DNA from: Desulfobulbaceae bacterium
GTDB taxonomy: Bacteria > Desulfobacterota > Desulfobulbia > Desulfobulbales > Desulfurivibrionaceae
Length of the DNA: 64,000 nucleotides
Assembly: GCA_004332195.1 (NCBI GenBank)
Contig: SJBG01000006.1
Span: forward strand, 1 to 64,000
Direction of reading: 5' to 3'
Part shown: piece by piece, positions 1 to 58,889 of the stretch
Position numbering within the stretch: the first letter of the stretch is position 1
Layout of the letters: each line of letters begins with the position of its first letter
Position numbers and translations under genes: made by a program
Notes under the pieces: generated by a model
Databases searched by the model: none
Told to the model about the DNA's origin: nothing
What the model saw: only the letters and a program-made list of their open reading frames with translations

Positions 1-99
1 TGCTCAAAAAATTATCCTCGGAATATCAACCATATGCCTGCGGTAATTTTTTTTACGTGCCTTGATCTCGAACAAAATAGCTGATTTTTCAAGGTAGCC
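1..99 (+). repeat. MITE-like element, copy 1 (cut by window edge)
   Basis: Right-hand part of the dispersed element described at 7032-7207. It runs from the internal TGCTCAAAAAATTATCCTCG segment to the terminal repeat TTTTTCAAGGTAGCC; the left end lies outside the window. It sits downstream of katA (minus strand) and holds no gene of its own. Orientation is called plus because the terminus reading CAAGGTGGCC/CAAGGTAGCC is on the right. Confidence 0.8.
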
Positions 100-7024: not shown

Positions 7025-7031
7025 AGCTTCA

Positions 7032-7207
7032 GGCTACCTTGAAAAATTAGCTATTTTGTTCGAGTTTACGGCATGCGAAAAAAAAATGGTTGACCGATGC
7101 CGGTCAACAAGGGAACTTATTACCGCAGGCATCTGGTTGATATTCCGAGGATATTTTTTTGAGCATAGCGCAGAAATCGGGCGAAAGAGCAATTTTTCAA
7201 GGTGGCC
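7032..7207 (-). repeat. MITE-like element, copy 2 (complete, with 33-bp hairpin module)
   Basis: A complete 176-bp copy. The termini are GGCTACCTTGAAAAATTAGC on the left and the inverted counterpart ATTTTTCAAGGTGGCC on the right. It is flanked by perfect 4-bp direct repeats TTCA (7028-7031 and 7208-7211). It carries the 33-bp module with stem TTGACCG-ATGC-CGGTCAA at 7087-7119. It separates purK from mlaE. No ORF of convincing length is inside, so it would need a transposase from elsewhere. Confidence 0.85.
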
Positions 7208-7226
7208 TTCAGCTACCGGATCAGGG

Positions 7227-11427: not shown

Positions 11428-11611
11428 GGCCACTTTGAAAAATTGCTCTTTCGTCGGCAACCGCCTCGATTTCTGCGTTATGCTCAAAAAATTATCCTCG
11501 GAATGGCAACCATATGCCCGCGGTAATAAGTTCCCTTGTTGACCGGCATCGGTCAACCATTTTTTTTACGTGCCGTAAGCTCGAACAAAATAGCTAATTT
11601 TCAAGATAGCC
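11428..11611 (+). repeat. MITE-like element, copy 3 (complete, with hairpin module)
   Basis: A 184-bp copy, the longest in the window. The left terminus is GGCCACTTTGAAAAATTGC and the right terminus AATTTTCAAGATAGCC. It carries the 33-bp hairpin module at 11527-11559 and a short extra segment (TCGGCAACCGC) near the left end, shared with the copy at 45496. No matching flanking duplication is visible (CAAT versus TGAA). It lies between the DUF502 gene and fbpC. The 140 bp between it and fbpC show no gene. Confidence 0.85.
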
Positions 11612-17522: not shown

Positions 17523-17547
17523 AGGCCACCTTTTTTTCAAGGTAGCC
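17523..17547 (+). repeat. Deletion derivative of the MITE-like element
   Basis: AGGCCACC is joined directly to TTTTTTTCAAGGTAGCC, so the two terminal repeats remain and the whole interior is gone. It lies between pgsA and the transaldolase gene. Confidence 0.6.
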
Positions 17548-21143: not shown

Positions 21144-21226
21144 CTTCTTCTCGCCATCCTCCACCTATAGGTCATCGTGTAGTCGTTGTAACGCTTCTTT
21201 CCTTACCACCCCTAAGCTGAGATCAT

Positions 21227-21401
21227 GCCACCTTGAAAAATTGCGGCCACCTTGAAAAATTGCGGCCACCTTAAAAAATTGCTCTTTCGCCCGATTTCTG
21301 CGTTATGCTCAAAAAATTATCCTCGGAATATCAAGCAGATGCCTGCGGTATTTTTTTCGCAGGCCATAAACTCGAACAAAATAGCAATTTTTCAAGATGG
21401 C
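21227..21401 (+). repeat. MITE-like element, copy 4, with triplicated left terminus
   Basis: The left terminal unit GCCACCTTGAAAAATTGCG occurs three times in a row with 19-bp period (starts 21227, 21246, 21265). The normal interior and the right terminus TTTTTCAAGATGGC follow. The hairpin module is absent. It sits between dapF and dapA and ends 6 bp from the dapF stop. Confidence 0.85.
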
Positions 21402-21407
21402 GATCAA

Positions 21408-31058: not shown

Positions 31059-31200
31059 GGCTGCCTTGAAAAATTAGCTATTTTGTTCGAGTTCAAGGTC
31101 TGCGAAAAAAAAATTACCGCAGGCATATGGTTGATATTCCGAGGATAATTTTTTGAGCGTAACGCAGAAATCGGGCCAAAGAGCAATTTTCAAGGTGGCC
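31059..31200 (-). repeat. MITE-like element, copy 5 (complete, no hairpin module)
   Basis: 142 bp. Left terminus GGCTGCCTTGAAAAATTAGC, right terminus CAATTTTCAAGGTGGCC. The flanks TAGT/TAGG match in three of four bases. It lies in the divergent argB-lptA region and must influence or sit beside both promoters. Confidence 0.85.
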
Positions 31201-38092: not shown

Positions 38093-38540
38093 GCTGTATG
38101 GAAAAACCGACCGCGCGGTTGGTCCAGCCGTTCGTAGGTGTGCGCGCCGAAGTAGTCGCGTTGCGCCTGCAGCAGGTTGGCGGGCAGCCGGCTGCGGCGA
38201 TAACCGTCATAGTACGCTAGTCCGGCCGCGATAGCCGGAATTGGCAGGCCTAGTCCACCGCCATGGCGGTAATCCGGCGCCAGCCGGTTTGAGCCCGGCG
38301 CATCACCCCCAGGAAAAAGTCGTCAAGCAGGAGGCAGGAGATTGTCAAGGGTTGGCTTGCTAAGCCCGCCTGATATCGATATCATCGAGCAACCCGCTGC
38401 GGATAATACAGCCGCAGCACCTCATCAGCGCGACGCCGCCGTAACTTAAGATGCCAGCCATACTCCCTGGCCGCCGCGCGCATGAGCATGTAGCCCCCTG
38501 GGCCCCCTTGGGCGTAAGCGATGATTTTCGCGGCATAATC
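38093..38540 (-). pseudogene. gnd: Remnant of 6-phosphogluconate dehydrogenase (C-terminal third)
   Basis: Translation of the minus strand, with frame changes, reads as Gnd from about residue 310 to the stop: YAAKIIAYAQG(GPGG)YMLMRAAAREYGW, then (shifted) YGGVALM...CGCIIRSG, then [20 protein letters not shown], then (shifted) [18 protein letters not shown] and [20 protein letters not shown], ending HTAWK-stop. There are at least three frame changes and a small GGPGG insertion. The first ~300 residues are missing, and the break is directly at the MITE copy starting at 38541. The oxidative pentose-phosphate gene is therefore dead here. Confidence 0.9.
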
Positions 38541-38614
38541 TGGTTGATATTCCGAGGATAATTTTTTGAGCATAACCCAGAAATCGGGCGAAAGAGCAAT
38601 TTTTCAAGGTGGCC
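38541..38614 (-). repeat. MITE-like element, copy 6 (truncated, abuts gnd remnant)
   Basis: Matches the interior and right end of the family (TGGTTGATATTCCGAGG to TTTTTCAAGGTGGCC) but lacks the left terminus and the adjoining ~70 bp. Its left edge is the broken gnd gene; its right terminus contains AAGGTGG six bases before the DUF6671 start codon. Confidence 0.85.
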
Positions 38615-38618
38615 CTTA

Positions 38619-39470
38619 ATGGTTGAAGTGTCTTTTTTGGGAGGTCGGTCGGCCGCCCTGTTGACTAAGCATCAGAAAGAAAAAGTTATCAAACCGACGC
38701 TGGAAAAAGGGACCGGCTGTCGGCTGATCGTGACAACGGCCTATGATACCGATCTCTTTGGCGCTTTTACCAGGGAAGTTGCCCGGCGCGGCTCCCAGTT
38801 GGCCGTGGCAAGGCGCAAAGCGCAAAAGGCCATGGAGCTTGCGGGGACCGAACTGGGCGTGGCCAGCGAAGGCAGCTTTGGCCCTCATCCCGCAATCCCT
38901 TTTTTACCCTTTAATCGGGAAATAGTTTTGCTGATTGACGCCAAAGCAAAGCTTGAGATCCGCGGAGAATGCGCAAACAGCGACACCAACTTTGCCAGCG
39001 CCGTGGTGAAAAACTTTACCCAGGCGGCGGAGTTTGCCAACCAGGCGCGGTTTCCCGACCATTTTCTCGTATTGCGCCCCGATAGCGAGACCCACCCCGA
39101 GCTGGTTAAAGGAATCAACGATTGGGCGTGGCTAAAAGAGGCCTTAAGCTGGGCCCTGGCCAAATCGGTTAATGGCCAGGTATTTCTGGAGACCGATATG
39201 CGGGCCTTAGCCAACCCCACCCGGATGCAAAACATAAAAAAAGCGACGATTGACCTGGTTGCCAAGCTGAACAGCGGCTGCCCGGGTTGCAAAACGCCGG
39301 GTTTTGCGATCGTGGCCCGGGAACCGGGACTACCCTGTGAATTATGTGGTTTCCCCACCAAAGAGGTGGCGAAGCTGATTTTTGCTTGCCAAAAATGCGG
39401 CTATCAGGTGGAAAAATTAGGAGCAAACAAAACGGCCGCAGCAGCTCGTTGTGATTACTGCAACCCTTGA
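38619..39470 (+). CDS. DUF6671 family protein with C-terminal zinc ribbon
   Basis: Recognised from SFLGGRSAALLTKHQKEKVI, TAYDTDLFGAFTREVARR, GVASEGSFGPHPAIPF and RFPDHFLVLRP. The C-terminal ~80 residues carry CPGC, CELC, CQKC and CDYC pairs, i.e. zinc-ribbon-like knuckles. Function unknown. The ribosome-binding site appears to be AAGGTGG of the MITE terminus (38606-38612, six-base spacer). The 3' end overlaps the convergent aminotransferase gene by 54 bases. Confidence 0.85.
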   Translation: MVEVSFLGGRSAALLTKHQKEKVIKPTLEKGTGCRLIVTTAYDTDLFGAFTREVARRGSQLAVARRKAQKAMELAGTELGVASEGSFGPHPAIPFLPFNREIVLLIDAKAKLEIRGECANSDTNFASAVVKNFTQAAEFANQARFPDHFLVLRPDSETHPELVKGINDWAWLKEALSWALAKSVNGQVFLETDMRALANPTRMQNIKKATIDLVAKLNSGCPGCKTPGFAIVAREPGLPCELCGFPTKEVAKLIFACQKCGYQVEKLGANKTAAAARCDYCNP

Positions 39471-43980: not shown

Positions 43981-44013
43981 TGGTTGACCGATGCCGGTCA
44001 ATAAGGAAACTTA
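43981..44013 (-). repeat. Solitary 33-bp hairpin module
   Basis: TGGTTGACCGATGCCGGTCA plus AATAAGGAAACTTA-like tail, the same module found inside MITE copies at 7087, 11527 and 49983, with two base differences. The stem is TTGACCG-ATGC-CGGTCAA (43984-44001). It lies immediately before the hflC ATG, in the hflK-hflC gap. No MITE terminal repeats flank it here. Confidence 0.8.
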
Positions 44014-45131: not shown

Positions 45132-45495
45132 ATACTCACCTTTTATCCGTTTGCCCGTTTGCGATGATTAGCTCGACCATCCGCTAAGACTTAAACCCGC
45201 CTAGCCACCACCCCATCGATAGCCAAGCAGTCTCGATGGGGTTACCAGCATGCCTTATTTTCGCTGACTAGTCAAGCTCTAAGTTGCCGCTTATGTTGGC
45301 GCTGTCGCCAACCAATTAATCAGTCCTGATTTGCCGCATGCCACTATTCTGCGATGCCCGACGTGAGTTCCGGCCGAGGTCATCAGATCAGGCTTGCCTT
45401 GACTTTTCTCCCTCGGCCCAGTAAAAAAACCAACGCTTGGCCGGGATGGATCGACCGCATGCCCGACGACTCATCAGCTAAGGGCTTACTCAAAT
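45132..45495. other. Gene-free stretch upstream of hflK
   Basis: 364 bp with no supported gene, RNA or clear promoter. A short ORF here runs into MITE copy 7 and has no protein-like features. Confidence 0.5.
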
Positions 45496-45647
45496 GGCCA
45501 CCTTGCAAAATTGCTCTTTCGTCGGCAACCGCCTCGATTTCTGCGTTATGCGCAAAAAATTATCCTCGGAATATCAACCATATGCCTGCGGTAATTTTTT
45601 TTACGTGCCGTAAACTCGAACAAAATAGCTAATTTTTCAAGGTGGCC
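45496..45647 (+). repeat. MITE-like element, copy 7 (complete)
   Basis: 152 bp. Left terminus GGCCACCTTGCAAAATTGC, right terminus AATTTTTCAAGGTGGCC. Perfect 4-bp flanking repeats AAAT at 45492-45495 and 45648-45651. No hairpin module, but it has the TCGGCAACCGC segment shared with the copy at 11428. It lies between hflK and the tRNA gene. Confidence 0.88.
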
Positions 45648-49930: not shown

Positions 49931-50103
49931 GGCTATCTTGAAAAATTAGCTATTTTGTTCGAGTTTGCGGCACGTAAAAAAATGGTTGACCGATGCCGGT
50001 CAACAAGGGAACTTATTACCGCAGGCATATGGTTGATATTCCGAGGATAATTTTTTTCGCATAACGCAGAAATCGGGCGAAAGAGCAATTTTTCAAGATG
50101 GCC
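49931..50103 (-). repeat. MITE-like element, copy 8 (complete, with hairpin module)
   Basis: 173 bp. Left terminus GGCTATCTTGAAAAATTAGC, right terminus AATTTTTCAAGATGGCC. The flanks are TTGA and TTAA (three of four match). The 33-bp module is at 49983-50015. It lies between argJ and the end of secA. Confidence 0.87.
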
Positions 50104-55215: not shown

Positions 55216-55287
55216 GGCCACCTTGAATAATTGCTTTTTCGTCCAATCTCTGCGTTATGCTCAAAAAATTATCCTCGGAATATCAAC
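55216..55287 (+). repeat. MITE-like element, copy 9 (truncated right side)
   Basis: Left terminus GGCCACCTTGAATAATTGC and the interior up to TCGGAATATCAAC, after which homology stops. Sequence from 55288 is T/C-rich and runs into the end of alr. It lies between argS and alr. Confidence 0.83.
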
Positions 55288-55316
55288 TACGTTTTCCGTT
55301 TTCTTTTGCTTTTCTT

Positions 55317-56498: not shown

Positions 56499-56562
56499 GG
56501 CTCATGTCCACTTATCAAGTGGTGTTGCAAGAATCGCCGTAACCACTTGTAATTAGGTTGAA

Positions 56563-56703
56563 GGCCACCTTGAAAAATTGTTCTTTCGCCCGATTTCCGC
56601 GTTATGCTCAAAAAATTATCCTCGGAATATCAACCATATGCCTGCGGTAATTTTTTTCGCATGCCTTGAACTCGAACAAAATAGCTAATTTTTCAAGGTG
56701 GCC
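56563..56703 (+). repeat. MITE-like element, copy 10 (complete, shortest)
   Basis: 141 bp. Left terminus GGCCACCTTGAAAAATTG, right terminus AATTTTTCAAGGTGGCC. Perfect 4-bp flanking repeats TGAA at 56559-56562 and 56704-56707. No hairpin module. Located between alr and the membrane-protein gene. The following ~110 bp to 56815 show no gene. Confidence 0.9.
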
Positions 56704-57814: not shown

Positions 57815-58889
57815 CCTGAATCCGTGAGTTTATAACAATAAAAAACTTCTTTTTTGATAGTTAATCACTTGAAATAATTAAGCAAATAGTGTAGATTTCA
57901 CCTATAATAAAAACTCACTCAACAGGTGAAAAAACATGCAAAGCTTTATAATTGAAAAATCCGAGGAAGAATTTTATACTCCCCACTCCGGCCTTGTTCT
58001 GGTGGGCTTAGCCATAAACAAATATACCAGCATGGCAACCAAACTGTCCAGACTTGAACCCAATAAAAAAGGCATTTCAAATGCTGATGTAATCCGTAAC
58101 TACCTAGGCCTGATGAGCCTTGGCAAAAGCGATTATGAGGCCATTGCCGACAAAAAGGGGGACAGCCTGTTTCAATCTTCTCTCGGCATAAAGTCCATAC
58201 CCTCCCCGGAAACCTTGCGTCAACGTCTTGATAACAGGGCTGTTGCTTTTGAGCCTATTATCTCTTCATGCGCCATTGAGTTCATCAAAAAATCCAAGGC
58301 GACTATTTCCCCGGTAAAGTCCACCGGCCATGTTCCTCTTGACATTGATGTTTTCCCCATGGACAACTCAAACACCGCCAAGGAAGGAGTATCCAGAACC
58401 TACCACAACTATGACGGCTATACTCCCATAGCCGCTTATCTTGGCATGGAAGGCTGGTGCTGGGCCTTGAGCTAAGGCCGGGCAGCCAACACAGCCAAAA
58501 TGATTTCCTACCATTTCTCGACCAGGTAATCGGACGGGCCAGGGAGCTGATTTCCAAACCTCTATTGGTTCGGCTTGATTCAGCCCATGATGCCATTGAT
58601 ACCCTGGTTGCCCTGCGCGAACAGAAAAAGGTTTCATACATTATCAAGTGGAATCCTCGCAAACAGGATATCTCTTCCTGGCATGCCCGGGCATTCAAGG
58701 ATGAGGATAGGCGCGTCTTGTTGTTGCAAATTGTTGCAAAATTTTGCCAATTTCAAAGAACAGCAGTACTACATAAATGTAAACAGGATAATTAACGCAT
58801 TTTGTGGTACGCGGTGATACAATAAGTGCTTAATAATCGAGCCCCATATTGAAAAATTAAAGCTCTTTTGGTTAACTCACGGATTCAGG
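57815..58889 (+). mobile_element. Decayed IS1380-family insertion sequence
   Basis: Perfect 16-bp terminal inverted repeats CCTGAATCCGTGAGTT (57815-57830) and AACTCACGGATTCAGG (58874-58889), flanked by 5-bp direct repeats CTATT (57810-57814 and 58890-58894). The transposase inside is IS1380-like, frameshifted and cut short. At 1,075 bp it is shorter than full IS1380 elements, so an internal deletion has removed the transposase C-terminus while both ends survived. It is inserted between ferredoxin and the ParA-like gene. The region is AT-richer than its surroundings. Confidence 0.9.
57936..58720 (+). pseudogene. IS1380-family transposase remnant
   Basis: First frame from ATG 57936: VIRNYLGLMSLGKSDYEAI, SPETLRQRLD, then LDIDVFPMDNSNTAKEGVSR, the DDE-region start typical of IS1380 (first Asp in D-x-D-x-x-x-x-D-N-S), and TYHNYDGYTPIAAYLG. 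A frameshift near 58460-58475 moves the rest to another frame: ELRPGSQHSQNDFLPFLDQV, RLDSAHDAIDTL (second Asp) and YIIKWNPRKQD. Homology stops near 58720, so about half of the protein is lost. Confidence 0.88.

Follow-up and report, generated by a model that had tools for sequence, protein, structure and literature searches.

The first 64,000 positions of one contig (positions 1-64000, hereafter the window) from a Desulfobulbaceae genome of 1.66 Mb in 21 contigs raise the question of what the short repeats scattered through them are, and which enzymes moved them. An initial annotation had described ten copies of a MITE-like element and a deletion derivative in these 64 kb, and all were recovered by blastn at the places given. 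Its account of the individual copies was refined; three of the ten are truncated or halved, and the derivative, placed at 17523, is a short relic. The features are as follows.

1..99, + strand (core strand +): MITE copy truncated by the contig start, found by blastn.
7032..7207, - strand (core strand -): complete MITE, 176 bp, of the subtype with a 33-bp nested palindrome; target duplication TTCA/TTCA.
11428..11611, + strand: complete MITE, 184 bp, containing nested inserts; no target duplication (flanks CAAT/TGAA).
17524..17547, no strand assigned: relic of 24 bp, two terminal repeats abutted, with ATAA/ATAA on either side.
21226..21402, + strand: MITE with three tandem left ends; target duplication ATCA/ATCA.
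31059..31200, - strand: complete MITE, 142 bp, between divergent ORFs; target duplication in three of four positions (TAGT/TAGG).
38532..38614, - strand: half MITE, left arm and apex.
45496..45647, + strand: complete MITE, 152 bp; target duplication AAAT/AAAT.
49931..50103, - strand: complete MITE, 173 bp; target duplication in three of four positions (TTGA/TTAA); a sister genome lacks the element in the syntenic interval.
55216..55289, + strand: half MITE, left arm and apex.
56563..56703, + strand: canonical MITE, 141 bp, the core reference; target duplication TGAA/TGAA; the syntenic interval is element-free in three sister genomes.
56619..56647 (approximate by a base or two), + strand: conserved apex hairpin TCCTCGGAATATCAACCATATGCCTGCGG inside the canonical copy at 56563..56703, located by alignment.

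The complete elements of the window are 141-184 bp long, non-coding and bounded by terminal inverted repeats (TIRs), and, as had been claimed, none holds a transposase, their length being too short for one. With up to three mismatches allowed, the terminal 16-mer has 22 matches in the window, against 1.1 expected in shuffles. The perfect 4-bp target duplications (TSDs) that had been read as TTCA at 7028/7208, AAAT at 45492/45648 and TGAA at 56559/56704 are exactly right, as is the reading of two further copies, at 31059 and 49931, as matching in three of four positions. At 21226-21282, the 19-bp left end is present in three tandem copies, with the duplication lying outside all three. A short palindrome, GTTGACCGATGCCGGTCAAC (approximately 33 bp with its flanks), was observed within three MITE copies (7089-7108, 11538-11557 and 49985-50004) and once outside them (43983-44002); it has the look of a second small, mobile repeat nested in the MITE. 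The right terminal repeat AAGGTGGCC (38598-38619) lies 5 bp upstream of the ATG of an ORF at 38619-39470, for which it could serve as a ribosome-binding site.

Genome-wide, ends like GCCACCTTGAAAAATT number 259 (128 forward and 131 reverse, with at most two mismatches), as against 1 for a reversed-pattern control. These end counts, together with about 70 extracted elements, form the basis of a census of approximately 130 elements, which amounts to one in every 13 kb of the genome. Most of the 72 end pairs extracted span 140-142 bp, a subtype spanning 173-176 bp, and the 67 own-genome copies that were typed all bear the termini designated type 1 below. A perfect 4-bp TSD was found in 50 of the 72 extracted elements (among which the triple-ended element at 21226 enters three times), far above the 5.8% obtained when left flanks were paired randomly with right flanks from other copies. 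The commonest TSDs are TAAA, TTAA, TACA, TGAA and TTAT, with C and G as frequent flanking bases. Occupancy of the same sites in relatives, the other point on which the transposition model had been staked, was examined with a blastn-type search using the 141-bp copy, and the element was found neither in four genomes of the same genus nor in 22 others of the same family. At the sites 49931, 55216 and 56563, sister genomes keep the flanking genes with a short, element-free spacer between them; the intergenic DNA has diverged too far for an empty site to be defined to the base. The identity of the repeats as MITEs with 4-bp target duplications is strongly supported, the transposition model of the initial annotation holds, and the window records a real MITE amplification, probably a recent one in this genome. 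The genome itself is 1.66 Mb at 100% completeness, compared to 2.8-3.1 Mb for near-complete genomes of the same genus; it is a reduced genome, possibly host-associated, with a MITE bloom and remnants of insertion sequences (IS).

With respect to the source, the IS1380 copy near 57815 had been discounted, and rightly so. An IS1380-like ORF at 58457-58795 is a sub-threshold PF13701 remnant, and because no matching ends were found within two mismatches near 57815-58800, it is not the source. The search for an autonomous element with the same termini led to an IS5-family element with similar ends in relatives, and to only a transposase remnant in the window's own genome. This IS5 (NF033581, E 2e-82), 1.30-1.33 kb in length, has the ends GGGCACCTTGAATAATGC / GGGTTCCTTGAAAAATAG, with the TSDs TAAT, GGAA and TATA in three copies and none in some others. 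The IS5_4 elements in two genomes of other genera than the window's (G070 and G047) have the ends CCTTGAA(A/T)AAT and a 4-bp TSD. The match between these IS5 from other genera and the window's ends is an imperfect one, comprising an 11-base block, CCTTGAAAAAT. The IS5 transposase of the window's own genome is represented only by a 95-residue remnant without ends (C4:1506-1790; 62% identity), and its ISNCY remnants have the type-2-like ends AGTTTCCATCCGGAAAC, on which ISNCY was rejected as a source of the window's type; therefore, the MITEs of the window either survived their resident source or lacked one from the start. Judged from these sequences, the source IS5 of the window's type would have decayed in this genome to the present remnant. 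Long TIR pairs in the fetched loci were also considered as autonomous elements, and those inspected proved to be two adjacent MITEs, none of them an IS.

Beyond the window's family, the 141-bp copy had matches in 40 genomes out of a searched set of 97 that included its own; these matches span many families of the order, with 80-94% identity among the best, and are often confined to positions 13-119. Loci matching only the middle have the same core and different ends, and this core is common to many families at about 75-94% identity. Across the phylum Desulfobacterota, 42 of 395 genomes sampled, belonging to many families, have the 141-145 bp hairpin. Desulfogranum mediterraneum DSM 13871 and Desulfobulbus rhabdoformis DSM 8777 are among the strains with such elements. 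With the apex motif CTCGGAATATNNNNNATATGCCTGCG and one genome per species, the organisms named in at least 80 loci were, among the matches listed, all Desulfobacterota or carried a broader compatible label. Carriage of the core by phages or plasmids was rejected, no matches having been found in the viral contigs, phages and plasmids searched. More distant hairpins with a similar apex (CTCG..ATA.....TAT..CTGCG) and other arms were seen at the loci L114 (internal), L180 (minus strand), L104 and L176, and their sequences suggest a still wider family. Hairpin arms in other genomes hold small inserts like CGGAGTCTGGCGCTTACCTCG at varied positions (L147:6370-6458, L170, L184, L207 and L209), possibly another nested palindromic repeat.

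The elements outside the window's genome were typed by their termini, with the following counts.

Type 1, termini GGCCACCTTGAAAAATT: 37 elements, 4-bp TSD in 20/37.
Type 1b (variant), termini GGGAATCTTGAATAATT: 14 elements, 4-bp TSD in 12/14.
Type 2, termini AGTGCCYGTCCAKAAAYGG: 53 elements, 4-bp TSD in 31/52.
Type 3, termini GAGCCTCTTGCAAAATGG: 13 elements, 4-bp TSD in 6/12.
Type 4, termini ATGAGCCTGTTGATTTAATG: 6 elements, no 4-bp TSD by the scoring used.
Type 6, termini AGGAGCCTGTCCGAGAATG: 6 elements, no 4-bp TSD by the scoring used; CTAG at the ends, as in the IS1182 partner.
Type 7, termini GAGACCTTTGCAAAACG: 4 elements.

The TSD nulls for types 1, 1b, 2 and 3 are 0.8-4%, and the type 2 duplication often reaches 6 bp (24/41). 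All types have a median element length of 141-145 bp, and at least six sets of ends surround the core. Of these sets, three match complete IS in relatives, namely IS5 (for the window's type), ISNCY and IS1182. The type 2 partner is an ISNCY (NF033593, E 3e-130) of 1.69-1.70 kb with nine copies in G070; the left end of an intact ISNCY, L260 (TSD AACT), reads AGTGTCTGTCCATAAATGG and is identical to that of type 2 elements over 19 bases. The type 6 partner is an IS1182 (NF033551; L284) of 1.62 kb with the end AGGAGCCTGTCGGAGA and the target CTAG, alike in 16 of 19 bases. Partner IS for types 3, 4 and 7 were not found.

The best explanation of these findings, and a probable one, is that of a structured, non-autonomous hairpin with exchangeable ends, by which several DDE transposases cross-mobilise it in trans; from the comparison of sequences we infer the mobilisation in trans, the exchange of ends by recombination and a function for the fold. 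A DDE transposase acting in trans would cut at the terminal repeats and, on inserting the element, duplicate 4 bp of the target, with the window's type presenting IS5-family ends to an enzyme whose gene would since have decayed here. The window family would be one branch of a phylum-wide modular system, in which a conserved 100-bp hairpin core is joined to the terminal repeats of IS5, ISNCY and IS1182 and to at least two more types of ends without a matched IS. Because the core is joined to the ends of several IS families, different transposases would have cross-mobilised the element, which could thereby survive the extinction of any one source.

Alternatively, these could be ordinary MITE lineages, all from one internal-deletion derivative of a DUF772-type IS that co-diverged with its transposases, IS5, ISNCY and IS1182 being related; the ends would then have drifted with the enzyme, the middle would be similar by descent and functionless, and no ends would have been exchanged. 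The models of the three transposases do cross-match, and the ends have a loose pattern in common. Moreover, the right end of one ISNCY, L233, resembles the right arm of the element beyond the TIR (0 of 200 shuffles), a likeness that may reflect origin from such an IS or later recombination; arm similarity is absent from the other seven of eight IS, and a profile search for the element arms in IS ends gave no apex-less IS matches. On a tree of the core, the terminus types are clustered, requiring 17 label changes, compared to 37 when shuffled and a minimum of 5. However, a single origin was rejected on this tree for type 1 (p 0.0007) and type 2 (p 0.018), though not for type 3 (p 0.1), and the alternative stem states AAAAAATAATG/CTTATTTTTT and AAAATTTTATC/GTAAAATTTT are each found in several terminus types. 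Given that the trees of the core and of the ends conflict, the ends were probably exchanged between elements. The core tree comprises approximately 100 columns with non-independent paired sites, which inflates the AU tests, and the evidence for exchange of ends is therefore good but not final. Finally, conservation is higher in the core than in the ends, the opposite of what is expected if only the ends matter. Descent by co-divergence is thus regarded as rather doubtful.

The conservation of the core leads to its fold. Folding of the whole element gave z values of -6.3 and -8.1 for the two strands, and with RNAalifold applied to 68 elements of all types, two-sided changes were seen in 27 of 35 pairs. 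For the core alone, 91.8% of pairs are standard, compared to 31-52% with the partners slid, and its covariation score is 0.252 versus 0.087 when shuffled. The apex is near-invariant, with an A.G mismatch, a bulged T and a T.C mismatch all kept; this invariance is partly by construction, many loci having been found through the apex motif, with L081-L099, found by whole-element similarity, exempt. Where stem cells depart from Watson-Crick pairing, the core strand shows A.C, and the opposite strand G.U or G.T, in 15 columns versus 1, among pairs common to both predictions. The bottom strand, opposite the core strand, is the more stable in 67 of the 68 elements, with an average advantage of 12.4 kcal/mol. 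When kinds of change are counted in the pairs common to both structures, the skew is weaker and borderline (23 versus 11, p 0.06), and in own-genome variation within such pairs it is not significant. In the folding models, these asymmetries are suggestive of selection for the folding of one strand.

Quasipalindrome correction is an established mutational mechanism to which any long inverted repeat is prone, and template switching of this kind could have kept the palindrome mechanically and produced false compensatory changes. However, the conserved apex mismatches and the fixed A.C pairs have escaped correction. Among 52 own-genome copies one-sided changes are present, and two-sided changes number zero, compared to about 300 cells between lineages; compensation therefore builds over lineages and is not an immediate product of conversion. 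This mechanical origin of the covariation is considered highly improbable.

The strong, strand-biased and covarying fold, the mostly intergenic placement and an architecture like that known for ERIC would also suit a functional host RNA or regulatory hairpin, kept, as with ERIC or NEMIS in mRNAs, for its effect on neighbouring genes and mobile only incidentally. Against such a role, no orientation bias toward adjacent genes was seen (57 sense versus 44 antisense at tandem sites, genes being taken as long ORFs only), which speaks against action in read-through mRNA. A known RNA family was likewise rejected, no Rfam family being matched at the gathering cut-off and only sub-threshold matches to miRNA hairpins being obtained; nor do the related genomes have copies at the same sites, and the want of compensatory change among copies in one genome also counts against it. 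A host function of this type is judged clearly unlikely. In the preferred account of a trans-mobilised hairpin, the core is most likely kept by a requirement to fold single-stranded, which we infer would apply either to ssDNA in replication or transposition, or to RNA. A more specific possibility, offered tentatively, is that a structured hairpin selected for the folding of one strand repeatedly gained the ends of different DDE IS, a parasite switching transposase hosts throughout the phylum, with the hairpin acting in transposition itself; it could do so by exposing or synapsing the ends, in ssDNA or as a cruciform.

These elements resemble the IS5-derived MITEs of bacteria in being short and non-coding, with terminal inverted repeats, a 4-bp TSD and an IS5 with similar ends in relatives, but differ in the whole-length hairpin, in a conserved core longer than the TIRs, and in the presence of the same core with ISNCY and IS1182 ends. 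The ERIC/RU elements of enterobacteria, as described in part in PMC2759123, are likewise MITE-like imperfect palindromes of 127-168 bp, intergenic and in many copies. They are of another phylum and another sequence, and the Rfam search noted above gave no ERIC match at the gathering cut-off. To our knowledge, exchange of ends has not been described for ERIC. REP/REPIN sequences with their RAYT (Y1) are also repeated intergenic hairpins with strand asymmetry; membership of this group, which would entail a Y1 partner and no TSD, was rejected given the clear TSDs and the IS5, ISNCY and IS1182 ends, which imply DDE rather than Y1 chemistry. The attC sites of integrons are single-strand hairpins with conserved extrahelical bases, of which one strand is preferred. 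The present hairpin resembles them in these respects, but has no integrase or cassette array and has TSDs of the DDE type. The nearest conceptual precedent is the IStron, in which a group I intron is combined with members of different IS families (as outlined in PMC4227781), so that one structured module is associated with more than one IS family in a molecular symbiosis; in contrast to the IStron as outlined there, the present module is a simple hairpin that neither splices nor codes for protein, and the IS contribute no more than their ends. No earlier description of a core with several sets of ends was found in the open-licence literature searched, and within that literature one structured core with the ends of several IS families appears to be undescribed.

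MITEs are usually recognised by their ends and linked to a single IS. If true, a core conserved above its ends and carrying those of at least three IS families would mean that non-autonomous elements can switch from one transposase to another and persist after their source is lost. The natural constructs of 'same core, different ends' would provide tests of what MITE movement requires, and the finding ties a MITE bloom to a genome whose same-genus relatives have far larger ones.
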